In this document: piece after piece, positions 19,124 through 59,300 of the stretch | Layout: each line of letters opens with the position of its first letter | Numbering within the stretch: the stretch's first letter is position 1 | Origin: Hahella chejuensis KCTC 2396 | GTDB taxonomy: Bacteria > Pseudomonadota > Gammaproteobacteria > Pseudomonadales > Oleiphilaceae | Length of the DNA stretch: 64,000 nucleotides | Reading direction: 5' to 3' | Assembly (NCBI RefSeq): GCF_000012985.1 | Contig: NC_007645.1 | Span: 1,654,501-1,718,500, forward strand | Notes under the pieces: generated by a model | Database searches by the model: none | Told to the model about the DNA's origin: nothing | The model's input: only the letters and a program-made list of their open reading frames with translations | Translations under genes and position numbers: made by a program

Positions 19124-19206
19124 CGGTAAGCATTATCAGCCGTGAAGCCCGCAGCGTCACACTGACGTTGCGGTAAGCAACCTCAGGCACGAAAGGTTAC
19201 ATCAAT

Positions 19207-36799: not shown

Positions 36800-37003
36800 T
36801 TAACCGTCTTTGCCGGCTTGGGCGTCAACGTGCAACAAACCGGCTTTTCCCCAATTACTGTCGTCATAGTCCTGCAAAAATATGGTGACCGACTCCGGTT
36901 TTACGCCGTAGCTGGTCACAAAGGCGTCGGTAATCTTTTTCACCAACTCCCGTTTCTGCTCCAAGGACCGGCCGGGGGATTGCGCGATGGTGACGACGGG
37001 CAT
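36800..37003 (-). CDS. 4-oxalocrotonate tautomerase-family protein
   Basis: 67 residues from ATG 37003, with AGGAG well placed. It begins MPVVTIAQSPGRS, so Met removal exposes the catalytic N-terminal Pro of the family; Arg12 and the length fit. Family members tautomerise 2-hydroxydienoates or aryl-pyruvates. It is last gene of the six-gene operon from 41896, 40 bp after the exporter. A phenylpyruvate-tautomerase-like role would suit the arylglycine hypothesis, but the sequence does not prove it. Confidence 0.85.
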   Translation of the reverse strand: MPVVTIAQSPGRSLEQKRELVKKITDAFVTSYGVKPESVTIFLQDYDDSNWGKAGLLHVDAQAGKDG

Positions 37004-37043
37004 AATTGTCTCCTGCAAATATATGAATGGAAGGATGGATGCG

Positions 37044-37946
37044 TCAGCTTTGTTGTCTGGCCAGCGAGGCAGGACGCCACCAGAGTTTGGAGACCATCAA
37101 GAAATTACCGAAGATGATGACGCCAACGCCGGAGAACGTTGTGGCGTCCCATCGATAGTCTTCAAACAGGGTGGAGATAAGGATAGCGACGACCGGAAAA
37201 GCCACCATGCAATACGCGGCTTTGTTGATGCCGATCTTATTCACCAGAGTCAGATAGATCGTAAAGCCGAGCACTGACGCGAAAATAGCCAAATACAACA
37301 GGCTAAAAATATATTGGGAAGTGAAGCTGAACCTGAGCGGCGTGTCGGTGGCGAATACGGCGATTAACAGCACCATGGCGCCGTAAGCCATTGAATAGCC
37401 ATTTCCGGTGAGCGGCGTGATGCCCTTGGCTCCGTTGCGCACAGAGACCATGTTGCCCAGCGAAAAGATCAGTGTGCCCAGTAAGGCGAACAACATGCCG
37501 GTGAAAAAATCCGCGCCGAAGTTTTGTTGCGTCAGCTCCCGCCAAAACAAAAGCACAATGCCGACAATGCCGAAAGCGATGCCGATAAACTCGCTTTGCG
37601 AAGTGCTCTGACGCAGAAACAGCCAGCGGTTGATGCTGTTGAACAGCAATACGGTGGAGAAAATGATCGCAACGATGCCGCTGGGGATGTATTGGGTGGC
37701 GTGATAGAAACACAGAAAGTTCAGGGAAAAAAAGCATAACCCCTGCCCGGCGAACCAAAGGTGGTCGACAGGCTGCGTTTTCTGGATCTTCTTAAGTAGA
37801 AACAAGGTGGGCAGCAGCAATAATGCGGCGATGGCGAAGCGATAGAAAATGGAAGTCAGAATGGGAACTTCGCCTAACTGCATGTGGATAGCGATCCATG
37901 ACGTGCCCCACAGCAGAATGCAGGCGATATATAAAAAAGCGGTCAT
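37044..37946 (-). CDS. EamA/DMT-family transporter
   Basis: 300 residues with ten hydrophobic segments in two EamA repeats, the usual drug/metabolite transporter length. The family exports amino acids and metabolites, including RhtA-type homoserine/threonine export. It starts 23 bp after the aminotransferase gene. It is likely to export the operon's product. Direction and substrate are inferred. Confidence 0.88.
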   Translation of the reverse strand: MTAFLYIACILLWGTSWIAIHMQLGEVPILTSIFYRFAIAALLLLPTLFLLKKIQKTQPVDHLWFAGQGLCFFSLNFLCFYHATQYIPSGIVAIIFSTVLLFNSINRWLFLRQSTSQSEFIGIAFGIVGIVLLFWRELTQQNFGADFFTGMLFALLGTLIFSLGNMVSVRNGAKGITPLTGNGYSMAYGAMVLLIAVFATDTPLRFSFTSQYIFSLLYLAIFASVLGFTIYLTLVNKIGINKAAYCMVAFPVVAILISTLFEDYRWDATTFSGVGVIIFGNFLMVSKLWWRPASLARQQS

Positions 37947-37969
37947 AACGAGCTTGTCTCCCTTGCTCT

Positions 37970-39286
37970 CTAGCTGGCGGCCGCCGTTTCGGGCGTGCGC
38001 AGGGCCAGACGTTCCTTGATAAAGTCGCGCAGGCGTGAAACTCCTTCGCTGATCTGCTCTGGCGTCAGGTAACTGAATGAGAGCCTGATTTCATTGGACT
38101 CTCTGGGGGGCGAGTAAAACATCTCCATAGGCGTCCAAAGCACCCCGTATTGCTCCGCCGACGCTTTCAGCTGCGTCAGGGTAACAGTGAACGGCAGCTT
38201 GAGCACGAGAAAAAAGCCGCCGTCCGGTCTGTTCCAGGTGATTTGCGAACGCATGGTCGATCCCTTGGGAAAGGCGATCTCAAGCTGATGCAGCAGGTGT
38301 TTCAGGTTGTTCTGATAAAAGTGAATCCGGTTTTCACAATGCAGGCGAAGATCTCCCTTGCACTCCAGTAGAACGCCGCCGACCACCGCCTGACAGATCG
38401 GCGAGGTGTTTAGCGTCAGCATGCTTTTGATTTTGGTGAGCGCTTGCGCCAGTCGCCGGGATACAACAAACCCCATGCGCACGCCGGGAAACAGAGTTTT
38501 GGAGAACGAGCCCAGATACGCCACGGAGCGGCCGTGTCTATCCAGCGAGGCGAGAGTAGGCTTGATGGCGCTCGCCGCGCCGAAAATGCCGTAAGGATTG
38601 TCTTCCAGCACGGTGAAGTGATAGGTGTGGGAAAGCCAGACCAGATCCATGCGCTGGCTAAGCGGTAGCGAGACGCCGGTGGGATTGCAGAAGTCGGCGT
38701 TGATATAGAGCGCTTTGACTTTATTGCCTTCCGCCTCCAGCGCTTGAATCTTGCTTTCGACTTCACTGATATCCACGCCTTGATCGTGAATATCGAAAGT
38801 TTCGACCCGGATATCCAGCAGTCTGGCGGCGCCGATGATGCCGACATACACCGGCTGTGGGACCAGCAGGACATCGCGCGGATCAGCAAACAGGGCGCGC
38901 AGCGTTAAAATCATCCCCTCCTGCGCGCCGGAGGTGACCACGATATCCTCCGGGCGACAGGCGACGCCGTCGGTTTTCTCCAGCATATCGGCGATGAGCG
39001 CGCGAATGTGTCCTTCCGAGGGGCCGTACTGGAAAAGCTGGGTAATAACGGCGCCTTCGGAGCGATGCTCATGTTGGGTAAGGTGTTCGACATAGCGTTG
39101 CAGATAACGGTCGATATCTTCGATCCGAAAGTCCTTCTCGATAGGTCGTCCGGGTGCGAACGATATCGCCTTGGGATATTGCCCGGCGATATCGTTGAGA
39201 AAGGTCATGGAATTAAGACAGGGGTCCGCCAGGGATGCGTGCAGTGGCGGCTCTTCATGCCTGTCCTGGGATGGCGTTACGCTCAT
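37970..39286 (-). CDS. PLP-dependent class I/II aminotransferase, HpgT-like candidate
   Basis: 438 residues, fold-type I. The PLP-binding Lys is Lys263 in LGSFSKTLFPGVRMGF. QYGPSEGHIRALIADML, the NPTG motif (about 201-204) and the Arg in NEIRLSFSYL complete the core. There is no N-terminal DNA-binding domain, so it is not a MocR regulator. Enzymes of this subgroup include 2-aminoadipate and hydroxyphenylglycine transaminases. It lies 3 bp after the dioxygenase gene. Sitting with a hydroxyacid oxidase and an HPPD-like protein, it plausibly aminates an aryl-glyoxylate. Substrate not proven. Confidence 0.8.
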   Translation of the reverse strand: MSVTPSQDRHEEPPLHASLADPCLNSMTFLNDIAGQYPKAISFAPGRPIEKDFRIEDIDRYLQRYVEHLTQHEHRSEGAVITQLFQYGPSEGHIRALIADMLEKTDGVACRPEDIVVTSGAQEGMILTLRALFADPRDVLLVPQPVYVGIIGAARLLDIRVETFDIHDQGVDISEVESKIQALEAEGNKVKALYINADFCNPTGVSLPLSQRMDLVWLSHTYHFTVLEDNPYGIFGAASAIKPTLASLDRHGRSVAYLGSFSKTLFPGVRMGFVVSRRLAQALTKIKSMLTLNTSPICQAVVGGVLLECKGDLRLHCENRIHFYQNNLKHLLHQLEIAFPKGSTMRSQITWNRPDGGFFLVLKLPFTVTLTQLKASAEQYGVLWTPMEMFYSPPRESNEIRLSFSYLTPEQISEGVSRLRDFIKERLALRTPETAAAS

Positions 39287-39289
39287 GGT

Positions 39290-40210
39290 TCACTCCTTCC
39301 AGATTTGCGGACAAAAATCCGGGTCGGCGTAATCCGGATCGCCGTTTTGGTTTTGGCGGCAAAAATAATCGTTGTTGTATTTCAGCGGCTTCCCGTCCGC
39401 CATCTGGTGGCGTTTGTATCTATTGCCGCCATCCTGCAGGTGAAGGGAAATCGATACCCGGTCGATCTGGCTGTAATTGGGGGCGCTGCCATGGAAGGTG
39501 TGACAGTTGTGGAAGCTGATGTGGCCGCGTTTGCTGGTCATGGGTATTTTTCTGACGGTGTCGCCATTAAGCTGGGCGGTTTCTTCCAGCATGGTTTGCA
39601 GCTCATCGATGCTGCGACGCCCGAAGTGACGCGTGACGCTGTCGTCGGCGTCGATTTCCCGCCAGCGATGGCTGCCGTCGATCATTTCCAGCGCGCCCAT
39701 GCCCTCGAAGCAGTCGTAAAAGTTGATAAAGGCGGTCAGCAGATTGTTGGAAGTGCAGGTAGACCAGTAATGGGCGTCCTTATGCCAGGGCACCACCGGC
39801 CGGAACATGCCCTCCGCTGCGAAGTCGCCCCGCGCGGGTTTGGTGATAAGGGCGCTGTTCCACACGCGGATTTCGTCAGTCTGCGCCAGCCGGGCGGCGA
39901 TGGCGCCAATGATGGGTTTGGTCAGCAGGCGTCGAAACGTATCGCTTTCATAATGCACGTAGTCGTTGTTACGAGCCACGTCGCCGTCTTCGGGAGTCCA
40001 GTAGGCCAATGTGGAAGGCATGGTCGGCAAGCGTCTGTCGCGCTTGCCTGCATAATAATCGCGACTTTCCTGAGCGAAGGCGTCCAGCTCCTCATCTGTG
40101 AAAACCTTGCCGGTCATGAACCAACCGTGCTCTTGATAAAAACGCACGTCCTCATCGCTGGGCAACAGTGCGCGCTCCTGTTCGCTCAGTGGGTATTCCG
40201 CTATAAACAC
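39290..40210 (-). CDS. Phytanoyl-CoA dioxygenase (PhyH) family Fe(II)/2-oxoglutarate oxygenase
   Basis: 306 residues with a double-stranded beta-helix core. The iron-binding HxD is His143/Asp145 in PWHKDAHYW; the distal His is probably His240 in CHTFHGSAPN; the 2-oxoglutarate Arg is Arg251. Family members hydroxylate or halogenate amino acids and natural-product intermediates. It is third gene of the six-gene operon, between the VOC and aminotransferase genes. It could hydroxylate the substrate or product; free amino-acid hydroxylation is plausible. Confidence 0.88.
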   Translation of the reverse strand: MFIAEYPLSEQERALLPSDEDVRFYQEHGWFMTGKVFTDEELDAFAQESRDYYAGKRDRRLPTMPSTLAYWTPEDGDVARNNDYVHYESDTFRRLLTKPIIGAIAARLAQTDEIRVWNSALITKPARGDFAAEGMFRPVVPWHKDAHYWSTCTSNNLLTAFINFYDCFEGMGALEMIDGSHRWREIDADDSVTRHFGRRSIDELQTMLEETAQLNGDTVRKIPMTSKRGHISFHNCHTFHGSAPNYSQIDRVSISLHLQDGGNRYKRHQMADGKPLKYNNDYFCRQNQNGDPDYADPDFCPQIWKE

Positions 40211-40268
40211 GTCGTCATCCTTTCTAAATTTGTTGTCGGAGAGAGTCGCCGCAGTATGGCGGCGTTTA

Positions 40269-40781
40269 TCAGTAGGCGTCGCTGGCTTCCAGTTGTCGGA
40301 ACAGGTCCTCGACGTTCTGTTCCGAAAAGCCTTCTTCTTCGTTGCGCTCTATGAACTCGATCATGACCCCGGAGTTGGGGCAACGCACGGTGAAGCGCTG
40401 GATGAGTTCCGGGCCTTTGATGGTTTTGGTGCTGAAGTCCAGTCCCTGTTTTTCCAGCTCCTTGCACAGGCTTTCCACATTCTCCACCTCAATGGCGATA
40501 TGCTGTGGTCCGGGGCCGTATTCGTTGATGAAACGGGTAATCTGGGAGGTTTCGTTGGCGCCTTCCAGCAGAACGAATTTGATCGGTCCTGCTTCCATGA
40601 CGGCGGAATGCATGGCGCTATGCGCGCCGGTGGTGGTCATGCGGTCGGAGAGGGTGAATCCCATCATGCTGAAATAGCCGATGGCTTGCTCCAGATCCAG
40701 CACCGCAATGGCAACGTGATCGATTTTTTTCGCTTTATGCCTGAGCATTAACTTAGACATGCTTTCCCAACCTGTCGTCAT
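40269..40781 (-). CDS. Single-domain VOC protein resembling the catalytic half of 4-hydroxyphenylpyruvate dioxygenase / hydroxymandelate synthase
   Basis: 170 residues from ATG 40781, whose ATGA overlaps the stop of the upstream oxidase (4-bp overlap, GGAG site upstream). The vicinal-oxygen-chelate metal triad is His22 (KKIDHVAIAV), His94 (GPQHIAIEV) and Glu142 (GVMIEFIER). The segment SQITRFINEYGPGPQHIA parallels the C-terminal half of HPPD and hydroxymandelate synthase. Those enzymes are twice as long with two VOC domains, so this may act as a homodimer. It could turn an aryl-pyruvate into a mandelate for the coupled oxidase. A glyoxalase-like role is the alternative. Confidence 0.75.
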   Translation of the reverse strand: MTTGWESMSKLMLRHKAKKIDHVAIAVLDLEQAIGYFSMMGFTLSDRMTTTGAHSAMHSAVMEAGPIKFVLLEGANETSQITRFINEYGPGPQHIAIEVENVESLCKELEKQGLDFSTKTIKGPELIQRFTVRCPNSGVMIEFIERNEEEGFSEQNVEDLFRQLEASDAY

Positions 40782-41896
40782 AGGGGGTCTCCTTGATATG
40801 AGGGATGTTTGGTGCAAATGATTTCCTGGTTAATGTCCGCCAGAGATGCGCAGCCGCAGATATGCATGCTGAGTATGAGGTCGTCGATGAGCTGTCGTAA
40901 CACGGCGGCGACGCCCTGTGCGCCGGCGGCGGCCAGCCCCCACAACGCCGGACGGCCCACGCCCACGGCGTCGGCCCCCAGGGCCAAAGCTTTGAGAATG
41001 TCTGCGCCGCTGCGTATACCGCCGTCCACGATCAGCGGCATGGCCGCGCCCAGGCGCTGACGGATATGTGGCAGCATGTCGATGGCGGAGACGTGATGGT
41101 CAAGTTGCCGGCCGCCGTGATTCGATAGATACAGAGCGTCGACTTCGTGTTTCTGTGCGATTTCCGCATCCTGTGGATGCAGCACGCCTTTCAATATCAG
41201 CGGCATGCGGGTCTGGCTTTTCACCCAGGCGACATCGGTCCAGGAAATCGCTGGCTCCAGGTGCTCGGCGACGAAAGCGGCGACTCTGGACCGCCCGGAA
41301 TTGTGTGGTTGAATCAGCGGTTGCTCGCCAGACCTGTCTGCGCTTTTTCGATATCGATTAACATCGAACTCATTACGACGGTCGCGCAGGCGCGCCCCCA
41401 TGCGGGGAACGTCAACGGTGAGCATGAGGGCGCTGCATCCGGCGTCTTGCGCCTGCTGAATGATATCTCTGTTGCGAGCCCGGTCTTTGTACAGATAGAG
41501 CTGGAACATGACCGGCGCTGTCGATTGTTTGCAGACTGTTTCCAGCGGCGTATCGGACATCGTGCTGAGCGCAAGGGGAGCGCCGCACTGGTTGGCGGCG
41601 GCGAGCGTCGCCAGTTCGCCGTCTGGATGAACAAGCTGGTGGTGCGCGCTGGGAGCGATGATAAGCGGGGTGGCCGGGGTGCGGCCGTGTTGAACGGGTG
41701 ACAGGCGGGGCGCGCTGATATCGACTTTGCTAACGCCTCGCAACACTCTGGATATCAGCCTGATTTGACTCAGAGCGTTGATGTTTTCCTTTAAAGTCCG
41801 CTCTCGCCCTGCGCCGCCGGCGATAAAGTCATAGACTTCCGGCGCTAAGCGGCGTTTGGCGAGATCTTCCCAGTCTTCAATACAAACCGGCTCCAT
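40778..41896 (-). CDS. FMN-dependent alpha-hydroxyacid oxidase, (hydroxy)mandelate-oxidase-like
   Basis: 372 residues, full-length TIM-barrel family member. Key residues are Tyr22 (YDFIAGGAG), the QLYLYKDR segment, LTVDVPRMGARLRDRRNEF, Lys236 (LKGVL), catalytic His260 and Arg263 (LSNHGGRQLD), DGGIRSGADI and GVGRP. RRLRD-x-RN and several flanking segments resemble actinobacterial hydroxymandelate oxidase (Hmo). It would oxidise mandelate-type 2-hydroxyacids to aryl-glyoxylates. It is the first gene of the operon and is translationally coupled to the VOC gene. Lactate or glycolate are alternative substrates. Confidence 0.85.
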   Translation of the reverse strand: MEPVCIEDWEDLAKRRLAPEVYDFIAGGAGRERTLKENINALSQIRLISRVLRGVSKVDISAPRLSPVQHGRTPATPLIIAPSAHHQLVHPDGELATLAAANQCGAPLALSTMSDTPLETVCKQSTAPVMFQLYLYKDRARNRDIIQQAQDAGCSALMLTVDVPRMGARLRDRRNEFDVNRYRKSADRSGEQPLIQPHNSGRSRVAAFVAEHLEPAISWTDVAWVKSQTRMPLILKGVLHPQDAEIAQKHEVDALYLSNHGGRQLDHHVSAIDMLPHIRQRLGAAMPLIVDGGIRSGADILKALALGADAVGVGRPALWGLAAAGAQGVAAVLRQLIDDLILSMHICGCASLADINQEIICTKHPSYQGDPL

Positions 41897-42300
41897 GCTG
41901 GCTCCCTGTGATTGGTTCGGCTTCCTTGTCCGCTGAGGGGCGCATCCTGTGACGATGTTTCGCCTGCTGCCCCTCAGTCGGACGGAAAATATCCAGATTC
42001 GTCTATGATTGAATATTTTCGTAAATTTTCTAATTTGTAAGTATTTTTTACTGTATTGGCCACATTAATTCTCTGTCAATGAAAATTTGATGAGATTTCG
42101 AATAATGACGAATATTGGGAAGACTGGGAATAAATTGCTCATAACGGGCGTTATGAATGTTTTTCCCCGCTTTCCGTTGCGATCTGTGGCATGGCCAGGC
42201 GGGAAAAAGAAAGTTTTTCTCTTTTCTATGCAATCCCTGCGTCGCAACTAGACTATGTCTACATGACCGTTTACATGAACGGATGAAAGGAGCTCAGACC
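41897..42300. other. AT-rich divergent promoter region (hydroxyacid oxidase operon / MaoC gene)
   Basis: 404 bp with no supported gene. The middle (about 42000-42130) is markedly AT-rich, as expected for promoters. ORFs crossing it are extensions of the MaoC frame or minus-strand noise. No regulator gene adjoins the operon. Confidence 0.5.
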
Positions 42301-44302: not shown

Positions 44303-46102
44303 TCAGCCGAGGTAGAACGAGGCTTCCGGCATCGTCATTAAGCTGTCCGCACCAGCACTGACGCTTGTCGCCAGAGAGCGTGTGCGAGGCAGCAGGCGCT
44401 CAAAGTAGAACTCCGCTGTGTGCAGCTTGGCCTGATAAAAGTCGTTGTCTCCGATCTGTGAGTCCAGCTTCTCCTTCGCTGTAACCGCTATCCGCAGCCA
44501 GAAATAAGCCAGGCAGACATAGCCGGAGTACATCAGAAACTCCACTGACGCGGCGCCGATCTCATCTGGATTGGTTTTAGCCTTTTCCGCTACGCCCTGG
44601 GCGAGTTGCAGCCATTCATCCAGGTGTTGCAGAAGGGCGTCCGTCCAGGCGCTGAAACGACGGGCCTCATTTTGGCCTTCACAGTAAGCGCGGGCTTCAT
44701 TGACGAACTGACGCAGCAGTTCGCCTTGGCTGCCGATAATTTTGCGAGCCAGTAAATCAATGGCCTGGATGCCGGTGGTGCCTTCATACATGGTGCAAAT
44801 GCGGGTGTCTCTGGCCAATTGCTCCATGCCCCATTCCTTGATGAAGCCATGACCGCCGTAAACCTGCATGCCGTAGCTCGCGCACTCCTGCGCGGTTTCC
44901 GTCAAAAAGGCTTTGACGATTGGCGTCAGCAGCGCCAGTTTCGCCTCGGCGGCGGCTTTAACGTCAGCATCTTCGCTGTACAGGGTCAGGTCTATCTGCT
45001 GGGTGCAATACATCGCCAGGGCGCGTCCGCCTTCTCGAATCGCTTTCTGCGTCAGCAGCATGCGCCGTACATCGGGATGCACGATGATCGGATCGGCGGG
45101 TTTGTCCTTGTTAACGGGGCCTTTGAGCGAGCGCATCTGGAGACGATCGCGAGCGTAGCTGATCGCGCCTTGAAACGCCGCTTCCGTGGCGGCCAGCCCT
45201 TCCAGTCCTACGCCAACGCGAGCCGCGTTCATGAAGGTGAACATACAGTTGAGGCCGCGGTTGGGCTCGCCGATCAGATAGCCGCGCGCGCCGTCGAAAT
45301 TCATAACGCAGGTGGCGCTGCCTTTGATGCCCATCTTATGTTCAAGGGAGCCGCAGGAAAGTGAGTTGGGCGTTGTGATTTCGCCGCCGTCGGACACATT
45401 GAACTTGGGAACGATAAACAGGGAGATTCCTTTAGTGCCTGCCGGCGCGTCCGGCAGGCGGGCCAGGACGACGTGGACGATGTTGTCGGACAGGTCATGG
45501 TCGCCGGCGGAGATGAATATTTTGGTTCCGGTGATCGCATAGGCGCCGTCAGGCAGGGGCTCGGCTTTGGTTTTCAGGAGTCCCAGATCAGATCCGCAAT
45601 GGGGCTCAGTGAGACACATGGTGCCGGTCCAGCGACCCGCAATAAGATGAGGTAAAAAGCGCTGTTTTTGTGAGTCCGAACCGTGGGCGAGGATAGTTTC
45701 AATACAACCCTGACTCAGTCCGGGATACATGGCCCAGGCGTGATTGGCGCCGGAAAACCACTCGGATAGAATGCTCGACAACGAATAGGGCAAACCCTGA
45801 CCGTCGTACTCTAACGGCTGCGACATGGCCGGCCAGCCGCCCTCGACATACTGCTGGTAGGCTTCTTTAAACCCTTTAGGCGTCGTCACTACGCCGTCAT
45901 TCCAGGAACAACCCTCTGTATCACCCACCGCATTCAGCGGCGCCAGGATATTCTCCGCAAACTTGCCGCCTTCCTGCAGGATCGCCTTCACCATATCCGG
46001 CGTCGCATCCGCGAACCTCAGCCTTTCGTAATGCTCGAAGAAACCCAACAGTTCATCCATCACAAACGCCACATCACGCTGTGGAGCTTTGTAGTTCAAC
46101 AT
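44303..46102 (-). CDS. Acyl-CoA dehydrogenase, long (~600 aa) DmdC-type subfamily
   Basis: 599 residues from ATG 46102 with GAGGTAGG upstream; the extension to 46123 is not needed. The acyl-CoA dehydrogenase domains are visible (MCLTEPHCGSDLGL at the flavin; YGGHGFIKEWGMEQ; catalytic Glu in MYEGTTGIQA). A C-terminal extension of about 130 residues marks the subfamily that includes 3-methylmercaptopropionyl-CoA dehydrogenase (DmdC). The N-terminal MLNYKAPQRDVAFVMDELL is typical of it. DMSP-derived or ordinary fatty acyl-CoA are both possible substrates. Confidence 0.9.
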   Translation of the reverse strand: MLNYKAPQRDVAFVMDELLGFFEHYERLRFADATPDMVKAILQEGGKFAENILAPLNAVGDTEGCSWNDGVVTTPKGFKEAYQQYVEGGWPAMSQPLEYDGQGLPYSLSSILSEWFSGANHAWAMYPGLSQGCIETILAHGSDSQKQRFLPHLIAGRWTGTMCLTEPHCGSDLGLLKTKAEPLPDGAYAITGTKIFISAGDHDLSDNIVHVVLARLPDAPAGTKGISLFIVPKFNVSDGGEITTPNSLSCGSLEHKMGIKGSATCVMNFDGARGYLIGEPNRGLNCMFTFMNAARVGVGLEGLAATEAAFQGAISYARDRLQMRSLKGPVNKDKPADPIIVHPDVRRMLLTQKAIREGGRALAMYCTQQIDLTLYSEDADVKAAAEAKLALLTPIVKAFLTETAQECASYGMQVYGGHGFIKEWGMEQLARDTRICTMYEGTTGIQAIDLLARKIIGSQGELLRQFVNEARAYCEGQNEARRFSAWTDALLQHLDEWLQLAQGVAEKAKTNPDEIGAASVEFLMYSGYVCLAYFWLRIAVTAKEKLDSQIGDNDFYQAKLHTAEFYFERLLPRTRSLATSVSAGADSLMTMPEASFYLG

Positions 46103-46320
46103 ATGCCTACCTCGTATTATCAATCCCGAACAGCCAAATAGACTCAGCCCATGAACCCAGTTTACCCGTAGAGGCAGGTTAAGCCGTTGGTGGTTTTTGA
46201 CAAAAATGATGCTACTTCAGACGATAGGGGGAGTAGATGTTTTGTAAAGGGGGATGATTTATTGATGGGAAAAAAGTGATAGGGTCATGTGTTTGGCGTT
46301 GTGATCAGGGTGGGAGAAAG

Positions 46321-47345: not shown

Positions 47346-50300
47346 ATGGTTGCGGTCGTTTCAGGGGAAGGTCTGGGATTGTTTGGCGCGTCCTTGTCAG
47401 GCGCGGGCGCGGGGTTATCGCAAGCGGGCGTCGGTCAGAGCGGCGAGCGGGTCTACGTCAACGCCGTCACGGGCAACCTGGTGCTGCAGCGCCGCGATGA
47501 ACTGCTGTTAGGCGCGGGGCGCGACGCCAGCCTGATCCGCACCTACAACAGCCAGGGCCGCTTCACCGACGACAACGGCGACAACTTCTACTTCAGCTTC
47601 AACCAGCGTCTGGAATTCAACGGCGGCAATCTGAACAAAGCCGGCAGTCTGATCACGCGGATCGCCGGCGACGGCAGCCGCACGGACTATCATTATGACG
47701 AGAGCCGCGGGCTGTATGTCTCCAGCGTCGGCGAAGGGGCCCACGACACCCTGGAGTTCCGCGGCGGCACCGGTTCTGACGCGTTCCTGTGGACGGAAGG
47801 CGAGAGCGGCGCGCAGGAAGTGTACAGCTGGCAGGGCAAACTGAGCGCGCTGGCCCATCGCGACGAACCGGGACGAGTGACCATCAGCCGCAGCGCGGCC
47901 GCAACGACCCTGACGACGGCGTCGGGGGAGAAACTGGAGATTCAGTACGACGGCGCCGGCCGGGCGGTGCTGGTGAAGACGGTGGGCGCGGACGGCGCGC
48001 AACGCAACCAGACATATTACGGCTATGACGCCCAGGGCCGTCTGACGACGGTGACGGTGGACCTGACCCCGGCGGACAACAGCATCGGCGACGGCCGCAC
48101 CTTCGTGACGCGCTACAGCTACGACGGCGACAGCAAACGGGTGGCGAAGATGCAGGCCAGCGACGGCGTGTCGGTGAGCTTCCAGTACCAGGACATCGGC
48201 GGCGAATACCGGGTGACCCGGGTGACCCAGGGCGACGGCGCGGACGCTATTGTCACCACTTACGCCTACGATCTGGCGCAGCGCACCGCGACGGTGACGC
48301 GGGTGTTGGACCCCGCGACGCTGAGCGGCCTGCAGACGGTGCTGCGCTACGACGAACGCACGCGCCTGGTGGAAATGCGCCTGCCGCAGCAGGACGGAAC
48401 CCAGAGCGTGCGCCGCTACGCCTACGACGCCGACGACAATCTCATCCAAAGCACGGACGCCGACGGCCACAGCGAGACCTACCGCTACGACGCCATGGGC
48501 AATCTGCTGACCCATACCGACCGTTTGGGGGGCGCCACCGACTACACCTATAACGCCCACAACCAGACCCTGACGGAGACCACGGACGGCGCCACCCAGC
48601 GCTACGTTTACGACAGCGCGCACCGTTTGCGTTACCGCGTGGACGCCGAGGGCGGGGTCACCGAATTCCGCTACAACCACCTGGGCCAGCTGACGGCGAC
48701 CCAGGGGTACTTGGCGCGCTACGACCTGAGCGGCCTGAGTTCCAATCAAGCGCTGAGCGAAGGACCTCTTAATACGTGGGCGCCCGGCGCCCGGGCGCAG
48801 GGAACCAGCCTGACGGAATACGCCTACGACTTCCGCGGCCAGCTGAGCCGTCAGACCCGCTACAGCAAGACTGACGCCACGGGCGCGGGAATCGGCGCGG
48901 CGACGACGCACTTTATCTACGACGCGGAAGGACGCCTGCTGAAACAGGTCAACCCCGAGCAGGCGGCGCCGACGGAGAACGCGAGCGCGGCCCCGGAGAG
49001 CCTGGGGCATCGCACGGGAGAAACGCTGTACGTCTACGACGGCCTGGGCCGGCTGCTGTCGGTGAAGGACGCGCTGGGCGCGGTGACCACGCAGACCGAA
49101 TACCAGGGCGCGACCATCCTGAGCCGCGACGCGGCGGGTCTGCAAAGCGTGAAGACGTACAACAGCGCCGGCGCGCTGATCGACGTGGTGGAGCGCGACG
49201 CCGGCGGCGCCCAGCTGGGCAAGGCGCAACAGTACTACGACGCCCAGGGCCGGGTGATCCGCAGCGTGGACGCGCAGGGCGCGCAGACCCGCTACATCTA
49301 TGACGGCCAGGACCGGGTGCGTTTTGAAATCGACGCCCTGGGCTACGTCACGGAGAACCGCTATGACGCCCTGGGCCGGGTGACGCAAACGCGTCGCTAC
49401 GAGGCCGCCTATGGCGGCGCCGACGTGAACCTGACGGCGCTGGAAACGTTCGCCGCGGGCCAGAGCGCGATCACGACGCGACGCTTCTATGACGCGGCGG
49501 GCCAGGTGCGTTTCGAAATCGACGCCCAGGGCTATGTGACCGGCTACGAGTACGACGGACAAGGGCGCGTTGCGAAGAAGACCCGCTACGACAAGGCGGC
49601 GGACCTGAACGCGGCGAATCTGGCGTCGCTGGCGGCGCATGCGCCGAGCTGGCGCGGCGACGGCGTCGTGCAGATCGACGCGGGACGGATTATCAAGACC
49701 GCCGCCACCGGACTCAGCGGAGGCCGGGCGGTGGCGAACGAAACGCTGCGACAAGGCCGCGGCGCGCTGGAGTTCACCGTGGCGGCGCTGCCGACCGGGG
49801 CGTCCCTGGGCGCGGTGGGTTTCAACAAGACCCCGGAGACCGTCCTGAGCGGGAACGCTTACCTGAATGAAGTGGACCTGGGCGTTTTCATCCGCGACCC
49901 GGACGGGGCGGGTTCGCAGGGCCACAGCCTGATGATCCAGGTGAACGGCGTGCGCACGGAGCCAACCTCGGCGACGCCGATTCAGGTCGGCGACCGCCTG
50001 CGCATCGAAATGCGGGGCGCGGACGCGCGCATCCTGCTTCAGCGTCCTGGCCAGCACGGCTTCACATTGATACAGACCCTGACGGGCGTGGTGGATGCGA
50101 ACGCGAATTACACGGCGCAAACCAACCTGTACGGCGCCGGCGCGGCCATTGAGGCGGTGGCGCTCAGCGGCGATGCGGACTACCACAGCGCGGGCGTCTC
50201 CACCCGCTACGTCTATGACGCCAAGGGACAGGCGCGCTTTGAGGTGGACGCGCAAGGCTACGTCACGGAGAACCGCTACGACGCCCAGGGGCGCGTGGTG

Positions 50301-53300
50301 GAGACGGTGCGTTACCTGGACGCGCAGGCGTTGACGCCGGCGCAGCTGGCGCAACTGCAGCGGCAGGCGGACAGCGGCGCGGCGGGGGGCGTGGGAGACG
50401 TCGTCTTGGACAGCGAAACCCTGCCGGCGCCGGCGGGCTGGAGCGAGTCAACCAGCACAGCGGGCTATGAAGGCCGACAGTACCTGACGGCCAAAGGGGC
50501 GTCTGCTGCGGTCGAGTGGCGCTCGGCGCTGACGCAGGCGGGACGCCATGGCGTGTACGCGACCTGGACCGCGCACGCCAATCGGGCGAGCAATGCGACC
50601 TATCGGGTTCATCATGTGGACGCCGCAGGCAAGGCGAGCGTGACGGACGTGAAAGTGAACCAGCGGACGCAGGGTGGTCAGTGGGTGTTGCTGGGCGACT
50701 TTGATTTCGGCGCAGAAGGCCGGGTGGAGCTGCTGGGCGGCGGAGATGGCTATGTGGTGGCCGATGCGGTGAAATTCGCGCGCGCGAACTACGCCACGCA
50801 GAGCAAGAAAGTCGTGTACGACGCCCAGGGTCGTGCGCGTTTCAGTCTGGACGAACAGGGCTATGTCACCGAGAACCGCTATGACGCGGCGGGCCGGGTC
50901 GTGGCCACCCTTCGCTACGATAGCGCTTACCAGGGCGACGCATGGGGCGAGAGCGACCTGGAGACCTTCGTCAACGGCGAACCCCCGGCTTCCCACTCCC
51001 AACGGGTCTACGACGCGAAAGGCCAGACGCGCTTCACGATTGACGGTTTGGGCTACGTCACCGAGAACCGGTACGACGCGCTGGGCCGTATAACCGAAAA
51101 ACCCAGTTACAGCTCCGCCTACACGGGCGCCGCTTTTACCGAAAGCGCCCTGCAGAGCTTTATCAGCGGCAAAACGCCAGCTGCCCATTCCCGGTTGGTC
51201 TACGACGTCAAAGGCCAGGCGCGCTTCACCCTCGACGCCCTGGGCCAGGTAACGGAGACCCGTTACGACAGCCTGGGGCGGGTAATTGAAACGCTAACTT
51301 ACAAAGGCGTTTATACCGCTGCGAGCACTACCGAAAGCGATCTGCAATCCTTTGTCAATGGTAAAACCATTCTTACTAAATCTCGTGTGATCTATGACGC
51401 CAGAGGCCAGGCGCGCTTCACCCTCGACGCTTTGGGGTATGTCACCGAGAACCGCTACGACGCCCAAGGGCGGGTAACGGAGAAACAACGCTTTAATGCG
51501 ATCTACACCGGTGCGGACTTTAGTGAAAGCGCCTTGCAGACGTTCACGAACGGCAAAACCCCGGCTTCCCATTCCCGATTGGTCTACGACGCTAAAGGCC
51601 AGGCGCGCTTCACTCTGGACGCTCTGGGTCAAGTGACGGAGAACCGCTACGATGCGTTGGGTCGAATAACCGAAAAACTCAGTTACAGTTCTACATACAC
51701 CGGCGCGGCATTTACTGAAAGCGCCTTGCAGACGTTCACGAACGGCAAAACCCCGGCTTCCCATTCCCGGTTGGTCTACGACGCCAAAGGCCAGACGCGC
51801 TTCATCCTCGACGCCCTGGGTCAGGTGACGGAGAACCGTTACGACGCCCTGGGCCGGGTGACCGAAAAACGCAGCTACAGCCATGCTTATACCGGCGGCG
51901 TATTCACCGAAAGCGCCCTGCAGACGTTCGCAAACGGTGAGCCCCCCGCCTCCCGCACTCGTTTGGTCTATGACGCCAAAAACCAGGTGCGTTTTGAGGT
52001 CGACGCGTTGGGACAAGTAACCGAGACCCGCTACGACGCGTTGGGACAAGTGATCGAAACGCGCAGTTACGATGGCGTTTATACGGGGACCAGCGCTACC
52101 GAAAGCGCTTTGCAGTCCTTTGTCAGCGGCAAAACCGTTCACGCTCGATCTCGCGTGGCCTACGACGCCAAAGGCCAGGCGCGCTTCATCATCGACGCCC
52201 TGGGTTACGTCACCGAGAGCCGTTACGACGCCCTGGGACAGGTGGCGGAAAAACTCAGCTATGACCGCGTTTACGCCGGTTCGGATTACAGCGAAGCGGC
52301 GCTGACCCAGTTCGTCAGCGCGCAAAGTCAGCCGCGCAGCGCGCGTCTGGTGTATAACGCCAAGGGACAGGCGCGGTTTGAAATCGACGCTCTGGGCCAT
52401 GTGACGGAGCGGGAATACGACGCGGCGGGACGGGTGATCGCCACCTACCAATACGATGGAGCGCTGCCGGCGGATGCGACCTACACCGAAGCGGGCGTGG
52501 AGCAATGGCTGCCGCAGGCGGCGGAGTGGTCGAAGCGCACCGGCGCGCTGGTGGGCGGTTCGTCGCGCATTGAGCAGCTGGACGTACCGGAAGCGAGAGA
52601 GTTTACCGGCAGCGTGAGATCGCGGCAGACCATCCGCGGTGAAGGCTATGTGGAGTTCAGCTTGCCCTCGGAAGGCGTCAATGCGGTGTTCTGTGGTTTC
52701 AGCGAGAAGGATGCGGGGACTTCCTACGAGGATCTGAACTTCGCGTTTTACCGCAAGCAGGGCGGCGTGGTGCGCTGCTATGAAGATTCGGCCAAGGTGA
52801 AAGAGCTGGGCGTGTTGCCTGGGGACACCCGTTACCGCATCGAGCTGAAAGACGGCAAGGTCAACTACTACATCAAGCGGGAAAGCGACGCGACTTTCAC
52901 TTTGGTGCACACCTCCACCAGAACGGTGGAGCCCGGCAAGGCGTACGCCATCGACAGCTCCTTCTACAAAGGCGGCTCCCTGCTGAAAGACGTGGTGATC
53001 GGAACGCGACTGGACGCCCCGGCGGGACGCGTGAACGTCAGCCGCACGATCTACGACGCGCGCGGTCTGGCGCGCTTCAGCCTGAACGCCCTGGGGCAGG
53101 TGACGGAGACCCGTTACGATGCGGCGGGCAGAGCGACGCAGACGCTGCGCTATGAGACCGCCTACAGCGGCGCCGATTACAGTGAGGCGGCGCTGGCGCA
53201 GTTCGTCGCGGGCGAGACCCGGGCGCAACATGCCTACATGGTGTACGACAGCCTGGGTCAGGCGCGCTTCAAGCTGGACCACCAGGGCCATATCACCGAA

Positions 53301-56300
53301 CTGGAATACGATCACAACGGTCAGGTGACGCGCACGCTGAGTTACGTCGCGGCCTATGACCTGAGCCAGCCGCTGACGGCGGCGGCGCTGGAAACTTATG
53401 TGCAAGGCCACGCTTCAGCCGGGGACCGGGTGGAGCAGGTCTTCTACGACGCCCGCGGCCTGGAAATCTACCGGATAGACGCTGGCGGACGCCTCACCGC
53501 ACAGGAATATGACCACGCCGGTCGTCTGACCCACCGCGTGCGCTACGCCGCCAGCCTGAATCTCGGAACCGCCGCGACCCTGACGCAAGTGACGCAGGCG
53601 GCGGACGCCCATCGCAGCGTGGCGGCGAACCAGCACAGCCGTCTGGTTTACGACGCCCTGGGACGTCTGCGCTACAGCCTGGACGGCGAGAATTACGTCT
53701 CGGAAACCCTGTACAACGGACAGGGGCAGGTGACGGAAGAACGCCGTTACGCCGCCCCCTGGACCCAGGCGGCGACCCTGAGCGCCCTGACGGGGCTGCA
53801 CCCGGACGCCGAGACCCGCATCACCCGCTACGCCTATGACGACGCCGGCCGCAAGATCAGCCAGTCGCAGCGGCTGATGACCGGCGGCGCGGAGACCTGG
53901 ATTACTGAAAGCTACGCCTACGACGCCCACGGCAACCGCACGGCGGTGACCGACGCGCGGGGCAACGTCACCAGCTTCGCCTACGATGCGGACAACCGCC
54001 TGATCGCCAAGCTGACGCCGAAAGACGCTATCGACGATGCGGACATCAGCGCCAGCGCGCGCAAAGGCGCGGTGACGCGCTACCAGTACGACGGCTTCGA
54101 CAACCTGATCCAGGAAAGCCAGTACGTCACCGAAGTATCGATCCATGAACGCACGGCGGCGGATTACGCCACGGCGAACGTCCCGGCCAATAACGATCCG
54201 GTCAGCGGAGACCGGCATACCCGCTACGAATACGACGCGCTCAACCGTCAGGAGCGCATCCGCACGCCGGAGCTGAATGGCGTCTCCACACTGACGCGCA
54301 AGGAATACGACCGCTACGGCAACGTCACGGCCTTGATCGAAGCGGAAGGCTCCGCTCTGGAGCGCACCACGCGTTACGAATTCGACGACCTGAACCGGGT
54401 GGTGAAAGAAACCAAAGCGTTCGGCACGGCGAACGCCAGCAGCACGGGCTATGTTTACGACGCCTTCGGCCAGGTGGAGCGGGTGATCGATCCGCGCGCC
54501 TACGAGATTCTCGACAGTCAAAGCGACTGGGCCAAAGGGGAGCGGGCGCGGTTGCGCCTGCTGGCGGAAAACTATCAGGCCAACCCTGCGGGACTGTGGC
54601 AGTCTCAGCAGGCGCAGTGGCTAAAGGACAATGCGTTATTGCTGAGCTTCCTGAGCCGGGAGCACCTGCCGGAGGGCGAGCACCGGGCGTTGCTGCTGCA
54701 GATTTACAGCAAATCGCAGACGTTCGACGCGCGGGGCCTGAAAACCTCGGAAACCAACGGCGAAGGCTATACGACGCACACGCAATACGACGCGTTCGGC
54801 AACATCACCTCGGTGACCGACCCGAACGGCGCCACCGGCTACTTCTTCTATGACGCCCTCAACCGCCAGACGCTGCAGGTCAGCGCCGGCGGCGCGGCGA
54901 AGGACTTCACCTACAACGCGGCGGGACAGGTGATCGCCCAGCGCAGCTGGGCCAACCGGATCAACGCGGCGTCCCTGGCGGGCAAAACCGAGGCGCAGGC
55001 GCGGGCGATGCTGACGGTGGACGCGGCGCATGACCAGTTCACCCGCAGCGACTTCGACAGCCTGGGCCGACTGAAGACGCAGACGGCGCAAGCGACGTCT
55101 GCGCAACAGGTCAGTGAAAGCTACAGCTATGACGCGCAGGGCAACCGGATCAGCTGGACCGACCGTGGCGGCCATGTTTACGCCTACCGTTACGACGCGC
55201 AGGGACGCCTGCTGGAGACCATCAAACCCAGCGTGCGGGTGACCTTCAACGCCGATGCGAGCCTGACGGGAGAGCGGCGTCTGAGCGACCGCAACAGTTA
55301 CGACGCACTGGGCAACCGCATTCGCGTGGTGGAAGGCGGCTATCGCGATGCGGACGGCTCCTACAAAACCATCAGCGGGCAGACGCGCGCGACGGAATAC
55401 GTTTACGACAAACTGAACCGGGAAGTTCAGGTGTGGTCGGACCTCATCGACATCGGCTTCGCCAACGACGCGGGCGAGATCCGACGCTATAACCGGGTGC
55501 GGCAGGTGACCCAGCGCGAATACGACGCCTTGGGCAACCAACTGAAAGAGACCGTGCAGGCGTTTCAGGTGGACGGCGCCAACCGGCCCACCACGGCGGT
55601 GGGCGCGCAGCGCAAGCAACTGTTCGAATACGATAACCTGAGTCGGGTGAAGGCGGCGGTGGACGCGGCCGGCGGCGTGACCGCCTACGACTACGACCCC
55701 AGCGGCAACCGCATCCTGGAGCGACGTTACGGCGAGGCCTTGAGCAATCCCGGCAATGCCGCGCTGGCGGCGTTGCTGGGCAAAGATACGGACGATTACC
55801 GGGAACTGCGTTACACATTCGACCTGAACAACCGCCAGGTGGAGACACGCACCCGGGGCGAGACCCACTTTGATCTGGCGCTGAGCAATCAGCAACTGGC
55901 GGCGCTGACCCAGGGCGAAAGCGCAGTGAGCAAGGGCTTCTACAGCTCCGCGTACAGCCAGGAGGAGGTGGTGACGCAAACGCTCTACAACCGCAACGGC
56001 GACGTGATCGCGGAGCGGGACGGTCGCGGCGGCGTGACGCGTCACTTCTATACGGCGCAGGGCGACCTGCAGGCGACGCTGGCGGCGGGCGTCACGGATT
56101 ACCAGCGCGAAGGGGGAGCGGTGACGGTGACGCGCCGTCACGCCCTGACGCAATGGACGACGGACGCATTAGGCCAGATCCGGGAGCAGGTCCAGTACGC
56201 CTATGAGGCGAAAAAACCCGCAGAAACGGCGACCCTGGCGGAGCTGCTGGCGAACGTGGCGGCGCAGCGGGCGGCGGCGGAGAGCGACGCGGCGAAGCTG

Positions 56301-59300
56301 GCCGGGCGCGACCTGACGGACCTGAGCGACGCGGAAGTGGCGCAGAAACTGGTGCGGGGCGACCGCAGACAGACATACGACTATGACCGCCTGGGACGCC
56401 GCATCACGGAAACCGTGCACGGGGTGGAGGACTACCAGTTCGTGAACGGGGCGCCAAAGAAGACCACGGCGAGCAGTCGCAGCACCCGCTACGACTACGA
56501 CAACCTGAACCGCCTGCAACGCACGATTGCGCCGGGAGAAGGCGCGGAGACGCTGCGCACGCTGGAGACGACCTACGACGCCCTGGGCCGCAAGACGACG
56601 GAGAAAGGACAGAGCTTTACGGACTACAAAGGCCGCATGGCGCGCGCGACCGTGACCTATGGTTATGACGCGTTAGGACGTCAGGTGACGCAGACGCGAG
56701 TGGCGCTGGAGGCGGGCGCCAACCAGACCAGCCGCACGCTGGTGAACGCGCTGGGCTTTGCGGTGGCGGACATTGACGCCAGCGGCGCGCGGACGGATTA
56801 CGCGACGGACGCGTTCGGCGCGGTGGCGGAGAAAAGCTGGAGCCAGCGGCAGGCGGAAGGTGGTAGCCAGAGCTATTGGAACCGTTACTGGTATGACGGC
56901 GCCGGCCGTGAAATCAAGCGCGTGGACACCACCGGCCTGAGCCACGAGACGCGTTATAACGGCTACGGCGACATCACGGCGAAAGGGATGAACGGGCAAT
57001 ACCAGGAGCAGTTCAAGTACGACCGCCTGGGCCGTCTGTTCAGCACCAACAAGGAAACCGGCGCGCCGCAGCTTTACCTGTACGACAAGAACGGCAACGC
57101 CTCGGCGGAATTCATTCTGGTGGACGACCTGAAGGACGCGTCAGGCAATCCGATCGACCTGGCGACGCTGACGTCGCCGGAGCAGGTGAAGGCGCTGGGC
57201 GTACTGCAGACGCAGATGAAAGTCAGCGTGTATGACGAACGCAACCGCCATACGGACACCTTTGAGGCGCCTCATGATTATAGCCAGTTGAGCGCTTCTT
57301 TGACGGAAGAGGAGGTTGATAAGAATTGGAGTTCAACCGTCGACTTTGAGGAGTACAGGCAACGACTGCTGGGAACGCAGGCGCCTCAGCCTGGGCTTAC
57401 AGCTTGGGAGGATGTCAAAGAGGAAACGACGGTAGAGTATAACGAAAAGAATGTTGGGTATTATTCCAGTGCTCCAGGCACAAGTTCTTCTACCTCTCCT
57501 ATTGGATTCGATGGCTTTGATTTAACTCAGGTCGAATCTGCGCTGGCGTTGCAGTATGAGTTAACAAAAGTAGGTAAAGGCTTAAGTGACGTTGCATTAA
57601 GTAACGCCACCAATAGCTACGACTCCGCCTGGCAAGCGGAGAGAGTGGAAAAAGATCCAGCAAACGAAAATAGGTATATCAAAACAACTGTCCGAATCTG
57701 GCGAGCTGCTGAGCCAGTAGGGACCGCCCATAATTACTATATCTATCGTGACGTGCAGACGCAGGAGTTTACCTTCAAACCTGATCTTGAGTTGGACGCG
57801 GAGGCGCTTTCAAGCCTCAAAATCGAGGAGAAGGAAAACAGCTATCACGTATTGATCAGTTATGAGCGTGGCGGAACTGTGACAGTGACTGCCCCTATGA
57901 AAACCACTCATGACACTAAGAGAGTCAGGCTTGAAAGAAGTGTTGTTGATGAGTATGTGAAGGTAGGCGGAAAAAAAGGAGAGGTCAAGGCTATTGGCAG
58001 GGATGTGGTGGAAATAGAAGGAGCAATAGATGTAACGCATGCTATAGGAACATATGGTCAAGCTACTGCGGCAATATGGAAAAATTTATATAAAGTAAAA
58101 ATTCCACAGCAACTTAGAGAATTAGGGCTTCCATTAAAAGTCGATTTTTATTATGGATCTAAGCTGGTTAACACAGGGGTGTCGACCAATATTTCTGACT
58201 ATGTTGAGTTTCAACATAATGGGAGTGTCGGGAAAGGGGGGATTCATGATCAGACTGTCTCCTTTAAGATTTATGTTCCATCGCTCGGTGGTTTAAAGTT
58301 ATTTGAAGGTAGTTATAGTTTTTCGTTAAATCAAGGACGACGAACGACGAGGGTATCTAAACCTACTGAATTTGGTATGTTGATTATCGGTGAGCCAAAT
58401 ACTCTGGATTCAATTGTGGGCTCGCTTTCTGCTCCAAAAGATCATGGGCTTCCAAGTAAAACAACAGTCACAATCAACGGGAAAGAAGATGTTGTATATG
58501 CGGATGAAAAATACGGTTGGCCAACTACCGCAAGATGGAGTAACTCATATACAGTTGAAATTCCTCCTGAGCTGAAACGGCTTGGGGTTCCGCTAAAAAT
58601 AAAGTTTTCCAGTTCTGAGAAGGTTGATGAAAAGATAGTTAATCCGGGGCAGCAAAGTATTGTTTTTACCCATGTAGGGCGGGTCGAAAGGTTTGGTCGT
58701 AATGACTTTCCTGGTCAGACAGTAGGTTTTAGTATTTATGTTCCAAGCATAAGTAATATTAAAGTTTTTGATGGCGTATATAACTATTCTCTTCAGGAAG
58801 GGAGAAAAACTGGTTCAGCTACAAGTACTAGTTTTGTTGAATCCGCAGAGTTAGGCGGGCGGGCTATAAAATATAAAGATAGATTTTACTTTACGCTTTC
58901 TGAAGGGGCATATCAGTTAGATTATGAAACACGTAACGCACAAGGGGGAGTTCAAAATAGAGCTTCAGCCAGCGTTTATGTAGGAATGGGATCTGGTAAT
59001 GTAGATGGCTATAAGTATGAGTTTATTCATAATTACGTAGTATCTAAGAAAACACACACAGAGTCAGCCCAGACAACATCGTCAGAAAATATAGGCGGCT
59101 CCTGGAAGCTAGAGAGTCCTGAGCAAAGAAATGTAATTCAAAATTACCGCGTTAGTTGGTTGTTAGGTGAGCAGTCAAGTTATCAGATTCACCGCAGTCA
59201 GAGATACAACGCGTTTGGCGAGATTGTAAAAGAGGTGGATGGTAACGGTAACGCCACTCACATGGCCTATGACGCTCAAGGCAGACTTACTTATAAAGTT

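Follow-up and report, generated by a model that had tools for sequence, protein, structure and literature searches.

The six-gene operon at positions 36800 to 41896 of a 64,000-nucleotide stretch of the Hahella chejuensis KCTC 2396 genome (NC_007645.1, positions 1,654,501 to 1,718,500; referred to below as the window) raises the question of whether a marine gammaproteobacterium could make and export a free arylglycine. Arylglycines are known mainly as building blocks of peptide antibiotics. To characterize the operon, it was compared with related loci with respect to enzyme family, conservation of active-site residues, order of the genes, and recurrent partners. These comparisons indicate that the operon is likely a stand-alone arylglycine module, in which a single-domain VOC protein, a flavin mononucleotide (FMN)-dependent oxidase, and an aminotransferase would act in succession, with modification by a PhyH oxygenase and export by an EamA protein.

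RESULTS

Organization of the operon and proposed pathway

The six genes are tightly packed on the minus strand with successive gaps of -4, 58, 3, 23, and 40 bp, exactly as given in the initial annotation, and a purine-rich (Shine-Dalgarno-like) stretch is located 5' of every start. The host genome comprises 7,215,267 bases in a single contig. Pfam scores of all six proteins exceeded the curated cut-offs, which confirmed the family assignments made earlier for the oxidase, the oxygenase, the aminotransferase, the transporter, and the tautomerase. The operon encodes the following proteins:

40778-41896, minus strand: FMN alpha-hydroxy-acid oxidase, Hmo-like (372 amino acids; Pfam FMN_dh, 400.6 bits)
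40269-40781, minus strand: single-domain VOC protein (170 amino acids; Pfam Glyoxalase_4, 54.8 bits)
39290-40210, minus strand: PhyH-family Fe(II)/2-oxoglutarate oxygenase (306 amino acids, GTG start; Pfam PhyH, 77.5 bits)
37970-39286, minus strand: pyridoxal phosphate-dependent aminotransferase, HpgT-like (438 amino acids; Pfam Aminotran_1_2, 108.4 bits)
37044-37946, minus strand: EamA/DMT-family transporter, proposed exporter (300 amino acids; Pfam EamA, 109.9 bits)
36800-37003, minus strand: 4-oxalocrotonate tautomerase (4-OT)-family protein with Pro after Met (67 amino acids; Pfam Tautomerase, 52.9 bits)

In the proposed pathway, 4-hydroxyphenylpyruvate would be drawn from the tyrosine pathway of the host and would be decarboxylated and hydroxylated by the VOC protein to 4-hydroxymandelate. 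The FMN oxidase would convert 4-hydroxymandelate to 4-hydroxyphenylglyoxylate, from which the HpgT-like aminotransferase would form 4-hydroxyphenylglycine. Tyrosine, the amino donor in the known hydroxyphenylglycine pathway, would likely serve as the donor here and return hydroxyphenylpyruvate. The PhyH oxygenase would perform a further oxidation, the EamA protein would export the free amino acid, and the tautomerase would keep the arylpyruvate in the keto form or isomerize the PhyH product. The individual reactions, the position of the PhyH step, the export, and the product are all predicted from sequence comparison. The chemistry would resemble the actinomycete HmaS-Hmo-HpgT route; the Hahella operon would differ from it by a half-size, one-domain synthase of 170 amino acids, by additional genes for the PhyH oxygenase, the EamA exporter, and the tautomerase, and by having no nonribosomal peptide synthetase (NRPS) seen nearby.

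Related operons in Streptomyces angustmyceticus and a second gammaproteobacterium

A related operon was found on plasmid p1 of Streptomyces angustmyceticus (NZ_CP104318.1; L002/L078), where genes for an HmaS-like protein, an oxidase, a PhyH protein, an aminotransferase, a DMT transporter, a prephenate dehydrogenase, and a tautomerase lie in a row. The oxidase, PhyH, aminotransferase, and DMT proteins are 42 to 52% identical to those of the window and collinear with them, and a tautomerase gene follows downstream in both operons. The gene table, which is incomplete, shows no NRPS up to 20 kb from the Streptomyces operon. This operon differs from that of Hahella in that it begins with a full-length HmaS-like protein, includes a prephenate dehydrogenase, and has a tautomerase of the CHMI type. 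The HmaS-like protein matched the HmaS structure 2r5v best (275 bits, versus 228 for HPPD structure 1t47).

Another gammaproteobacterial cluster, in genome G147 (L104:1041-4430), comprises adjacent genes for an oxidase (44% identical to that of the window), a full-length HPPD-superfamily protein lacking the Pro-x-Asn motif, and a class I/II-like aminotransferase (27%). The G147 cluster means that arylglycine-like gene sets outside the actinomycetes are not unique to Hahella. Inspected by eye, the neighboring open reading frames (ORFs) resemble diaminopropionate-synthesis genes. The newness claimed for the Hahella operon in the initial annotation is reduced by these two loci, the first of which is an operon of the same kind; a search of a partial literature library returned no published description of either cluster.

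Ligand site of the FMN oxidase

The Hmo ligand site consists of Phe24, Ala79, Tyr128, Met160, Arg163, His252, and Arg255 (PMC6677016). In a 26-row alignment, the three Hahella oxidases have all seven residues. Of the remaining 23 rows, the complete site was present only in four actinomycete oxidases adjoining HmaS-like genes (L014, L039, L040, and L041) and in none of the 13 "other" oxidases, for which no such neighbor was found in the few kilobases read. Phe24 was found in all nine actinomycete oxidases from arylglycine contexts and in 1 of the 13 others; one of the nine, that of G855, is separated from the aminotransferase by about 43 kb. Met160 was found in four of these nine, the remaining five having Leu, and in none of the 13. 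The oxidase of the S. angustmyceticus operon shares Met160 and forms an exception at Phe24, which is replaced by Tyr.

L039 is the Nonomuraea gerenzanensis locus (dbv cluster) and contains vanY-N. As an example of the actinomycete HmaS-Hmo-HpgT pathway, it has an oxidase related to that of Hahella with the same seven ligand-site residues, adjoined by an HmaS/HPPD-superfamily enzyme, and a prephenate dehydrogenase about 6 kb away. HpgT-like aminotransferases, as in the Hahella operon, occur in other actinomycete HmaS-Hmo loci.

Genomic context of the aminotransferase

A search of 197 actinomycete-class genomes (E <= 1e-60) yielded nine matches to the aminotransferase in seven genomes. Six of these places are at most 17 kb from a match to the HmaS-like protein of S. 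angustmyceticus (ranks 1, 2, 3, 6, 7, and 16 in the list of such matches), and four of the nine adjoin an oxidase match. The other three are located beside or at most about 2 kb from a type III polyketide synthase, an enzyme that is part of the dihydroxyphenylglycine pathway. With six places near HmaS-like genes and three near type III polyketide synthases, the nearest relatives of the aminotransferase were thus found in arylglycine contexts in 9/9 cases, as in the HpgT type. In the plasmid collection, the best 20 of 1669 matching records were all from actinomycetes, and the enzyme of the S. angustmyceticus operon is 45% identical to that of Hahella. These relationships suggest that the aminotransferase is HpgT-like and may transaminate an arylglyoxylate.

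PhyH oxygenase and its pairing with HmaS-like genes

The PhyH protein scored far above the Pfam cut-off of 22 bits. All nine PhyH sequences compared, that of the window included, share H143, D145, H240, and R251. The first three correspond to the His-x-Asp...His facial triad and R251 to the 2-oxoglutarate Arg, and these residues fit a hydroxylase. The substrate could not be read from the PDB sequence matches, which include SnoN, SnoK, and ectoine hydroxylase. At E <= 1e-20, the search of 274 class genomes recovered PhyH in the own genome only, and a pattern scan of genome contigs recovered close relatives only (three loci). The best plasmid match was the protein of S. angustmyceticus p1 (52%).

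When the S. angustmyceticus PhyH protein was compared with 180 genomes of one actinomycete order, matches were obtained in 21, and 20 of the 21 loci were fetched. An HmaS-like gene adjoins PhyH in 18 of the 20, many of which are of one cluster type and do not count as 18 independent cases. In genome G862, which belongs to the 18, genes for HmaS-like, PhyH, oxidase, and HpgT-like proteins lie within 17 kb, in a region that also has ketosynthase, AMP-ligase, and P450 genes; G963, also one of the 18, has the counterparts of the four within 17 kb. G1152 and G1250 have a compact cluster of ketosynthase, HmaS, PhyH, hydrolase, oxidase, and aminotransferase genes. These ketosynthase clusters (L065-L068, L099, and L100) share the HmaS-like, PhyH, oxidase, and HpgT-like families with Hahella and differ from its operon in that ketosynthase, AMP-ligase, and hydrolase genes are also present; in 12 of the 20 PhyH loci, the HmaS-PhyH pair is followed by a gene for a haem-oxygenase-like DUF3050 protein. 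The HmaS-like and PhyH genes form a conserved actinomycete pair (L065-L068 and L079-L096), and no paper on this pairing was found in the partial library. The PhyH enzyme is proposed to catalyze a putative step in which the arylglycine or its keto acid is modified.

EamA transporter, tautomerase, and a possible catabolic role

In the S. angustmyceticus operon, the DMT protein encoded after the aminotransferase is 43% identical to the EamA protein. Some members of the EamA family are amino-acid exporters, and the matches of the Hahella protein to such exporters were weak; it is proposed as a putative exporter. In S. angustmyceticus, the CHMI-type tautomerase gene is located downstream of the exporter and prephenate dehydrogenase genes. 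The Hahella tautomerase possibly catalyzes keto-enol isomerization, with either an arylpyruvate or the product of PhyH as substrate.

Catechol meta-cleavage is a known setting of the 4-OT family, and the presence of such a tautomerase together with a hydroxy-acid oxidase would also suit a catabolic operon for the degradation of mandelate-type hydroxy acids or aromatics. A MaoC-like gene, whose similarity to PaaZ is far below the cut-off, lies divergently upstream. Such a role is very improbable, however: none of the six proteins matched decarboxylase, ring-cleavage, or CoA-ligase families in Pfam, the EamA family takes in amino-acid exporters, and relatives of the aminotransferase and PhyH are found in clusters with ketosynthase and AMP-ligase genes.

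The single-domain VOC protein as a probable half-size hydroxymandelate synthase

H22, H94, and E142 of the VOC protein are present in 10/10 sequences of its family and align with HmaS-like and HPPD-length proteins. His-His-Glu constitutes the metal ligands of the 4HPPD/HmaS catalytic domain. The Pro-x-Asn motif, which has a role in HPPD, was read from the alignment in 12 of 13 HPPD-length references, in none of 12 HmaS-like proteins, and in none of the 10 VOC sequences. The C-terminal helix of HmaS/HPPD is present in the VOC protein, and an insertion that spans about 28 alignment columns in HPPD/HmaS proteins is missing. The VOC protein resembles the HPPD/HmaS superfamily (2r5v and 3zgj) in ligands, helix, and fold and differs from it in having one VOC domain instead of two. 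Structural comparison by VIA-align gave two HmaS structures as top matches over 163 to 168 of the 170 residues, whereas methylmalonyl-CoA epimerases cover 123 to 137. Of the 15 hits of the VOC family profile outside the family, 13 were HPPD-length proteins. With 79.3 bits against a cut-off of 277, the protein falls below the NCBIfam 4HPPD model; it is not filed as an HmaS member here and is suggested to work like one. The VOC protein is a probable half-size hydroxymandelate synthase. The HPPD/HmaS-like assignment made in the initial annotation is refined as to size, since the protein is a single domain, and the refuting outcome named there, a phylogenetic placement with glyoxalases or resistance proteins, did not occur, although Foldseek E-values put epimerase- and glyoxalase-type structures first.

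A different amino acid product would result if the VOC protein were an epimerase-/glyoxalase-like helper and the oxidase and aminotransferase built another exported non-protein amino acid. In favor of this, the VOC protein scored 60.4 bits with the methylmalonyl-CoA epimerase model (NCBIfam TIGR03081), Foldseek E-values rank epimerase- and glyoxalase-type structures first, and the oxidase is on a long branch. We consider this explanation improbable: the epimerase cut-off of 114.95 was missed, the C-terminal helix and the top VIA-align matches are HmaS-like, the Hmo ligand site is complete, and the aminotransferase context is 9/9. Glyoxalase, resistance protein, and methylmalonyl-CoA epimerase were rejected as identities of the VOC protein on the missed cut-off and the shorter structural coverage, although the Foldseek E-values favor them.

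Beyond Hahella and Vreelandella, VOC relatives were examined at eight further loci (Vibrio europaeus, Rhizobium T136, S. chiapasense, Bradyrhizobium 187, Paraburkholderia sabiae, S. meliloti T073, G569, and G731); 7 of 12 plasmid records with VOC matches were opened. A related aminotransferase gene is located next door in five of the eight, split into two ORFs in Bradyrhizobium, and all except G731 are beside or a few genes from NRPS genes. In the rhizobial loci, the VOC gene was seen to have no Hmo-like oxidase as a neighbor, and the Vibrio europaeus cluster has an Ldh-family oxidoreductase in its place. The relative in G731 (L035:8606-9112) has a TPR-sulfotransferase protein as its neighbor, and no arylglycine context was seen there. 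A weaker match in S. garamanticum (34%) had no pathway gene listed nearby. The VOC profile (E <= 1e-25) matched only G569 itself in 150 genomes of its order, and no paper on a one-domain hydroxymandelate synthase was found in the partial library.

On the S. meliloti T073 plasmid (L010:7701-8483), the VOC relative is fused to a chorismate mutase and located beside prephenate dehydrogenase, pabB, and NRPS genes, which ties the VOC family to arylpyruvate chemistry. Chorismate mutase, prephenate dehydrogenase, and pabB are the gene set for 4-aminophenylpyruvate. The locus may serve a possible aminophenylpyruvate-derived amino acid.

The same enzyme logic in Hahella could start from another arylpyruvate, with phenylpyruvate or 4-aminophenylpyruvate leading to phenylglycine or aminophenylglycine. 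The S. meliloti fusion is in line with this, as is the fact that the Hahella operon contains no gene supplying hydroxyphenylpyruvate. Substrate promiscuity of Hms has been described, with p-fluoro-, p-nitro-, and p-methoxy-substituted compounds among the substrates named (PMC3720870). The closest whole-operon counterpart, that of S. angustmyceticus, has a prephenate dehydrogenase, however, and its possibly incomplete gene table shows no pabB up to 20 kb away. Another starting arylpyruvate is rather unlikely, and 4-hydroxyphenylpyruvate is the more probable one.

Observations weighing against an arylglycine module

Several observations speak against the arylglycine module. Standard HmaS proteins have two domains and about 350 to 370 amino acids, in contrast to the VOC protein, and Foldseek favors the epimerase/glyoxalase-type structures as described above. 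The 26-row tree places the oxidase beside Hmo-type oxidases with weak support (67/86) and on a long Hahella branch (1.23), and sequence searches against the PDB could not separate Hmo from glycolate-type oxidases. For the earlier assignment of the oxidase to the Hmo rather than the lactate/glycolate type, the seven ligand-site residues are more informative than the tree, which, weak as it is, did not place the oxidase with lactate/glycolate oxidases. PhyH homologs at L003, L004, L007, L097, and L098 have no listed or detected HmaS neighbor, and a 47% paralog of the EamA protein is encoded elsewhere in the same genome. A motif script found no hydroxyphenylglycine code in 17 adenylation domains of NRPSs near VOC relatives; for 6 of these domains the majority of the first code positions went unread, and for 3 a single position did. 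The codes obtained were serine-like and, in one case, Phe-like, and the two domains of the control cluster also had no hydroxyphenylglycine code.

Conservation and surroundings of the operon

A match to the EamA protein of at least 96% was obtained in four of seven same-genus genomes searched, the own genome included. All six genes were found in the same order in the other three (L105, L106, and L036; 82 to 99% per protein), which was the comparison proposed in the initial annotation and which indicates that the arrangement is not due to chance. G004 represents the same contig as Hahella sp. HN01, a close relative. Nucleotide identity between the window and HN01 is 80.7% for the oxidase gene, which is lower than the 86.1 to 90.7% of the genes for the VOC protein, PhyH, the aminotransferase, and EamA.

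A contig of Vreelandella hamiltonii encodes PhyH, aminotransferase, EamA, and tautomerase proteins at 73 to 83%; the VOC gene is broken off near the contig end, and the ORF after the tautomerase gene reads by eye as an IS30-like transposase. Because of this copy and the transposase ORF, the block is accessory and probably mobile.

One further feature was located upstream of the operon:

42050-42079, minus strand: sigma-70-like promoter match (10/12 consensus positions; weak)

Seven such sites were found in the region, compared to 3.7 (standard deviation, 1.8) in shuffled sequences, so the match is weak. Neither Rfam (at the gathering threshold) nor a tRNA scan gave a match in the window.

The initial annotation had noted that no peptide synthetase is located nearby. 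No NRPS was seen among the 10 of 15 window ORFs of at least 450 amino acids that were scanned, which agrees with this statement; four of the other five lie opposite scanned ORFs, and the fifth is located at 44303-46123. An NRPS near the operon was rejected on this basis. The 5497-amino-acid ORF at 47346-63839, scanned over its first 4900 amino acids, has RHS repeats and a Golvesin_C domain. At 17351-20967, asparagine-synthase-like and GNAT/ATP-grasp genes were observed, a pair reminiscent of N-acetylglutaminylglutamine amide synthesis.

DISCUSSION

The HmaS-Hmo-HpgT-like arylglycine route with an added PhyH enzyme and exporter, first put forward in the initial annotation, gains support from the Hmo ligand site, the context of the aminotransferase, the S. 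angustmyceticus operon, and the HmaS-PhyH pairing in 18 of 20 loci. A broader proposal has about an even chance of being correct: half-size, single-VOC-domain hydroxymandelate synthases would exist in Proteobacteria (Hahella, Vibrio, rhizobia, and Paraburkholderia), the NRPS-free Hahella pathway with its PhyH step would yield a new exported arylglycine, and one actinomycete order would commonly carry an apparently undescribed HmaS-PhyH-Hmo-HpgT module with a full-length synthase.

The small size of the operon makes the whole proposal testable by expression of six genes. The actinomycete HmaS-PhyH pairing points to an unexplored arylglycine oxidation and offers a simple hook for genome mining. 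A functional one-domain hydroxymandelate synthase would inform the origin of the two-domain HPPD/HmaS enzymes and would offer mandelate chemistry a compact catalyst. If the proposal is true, a marine gammaproteobacterium would also make arylglycines in free form and export them.

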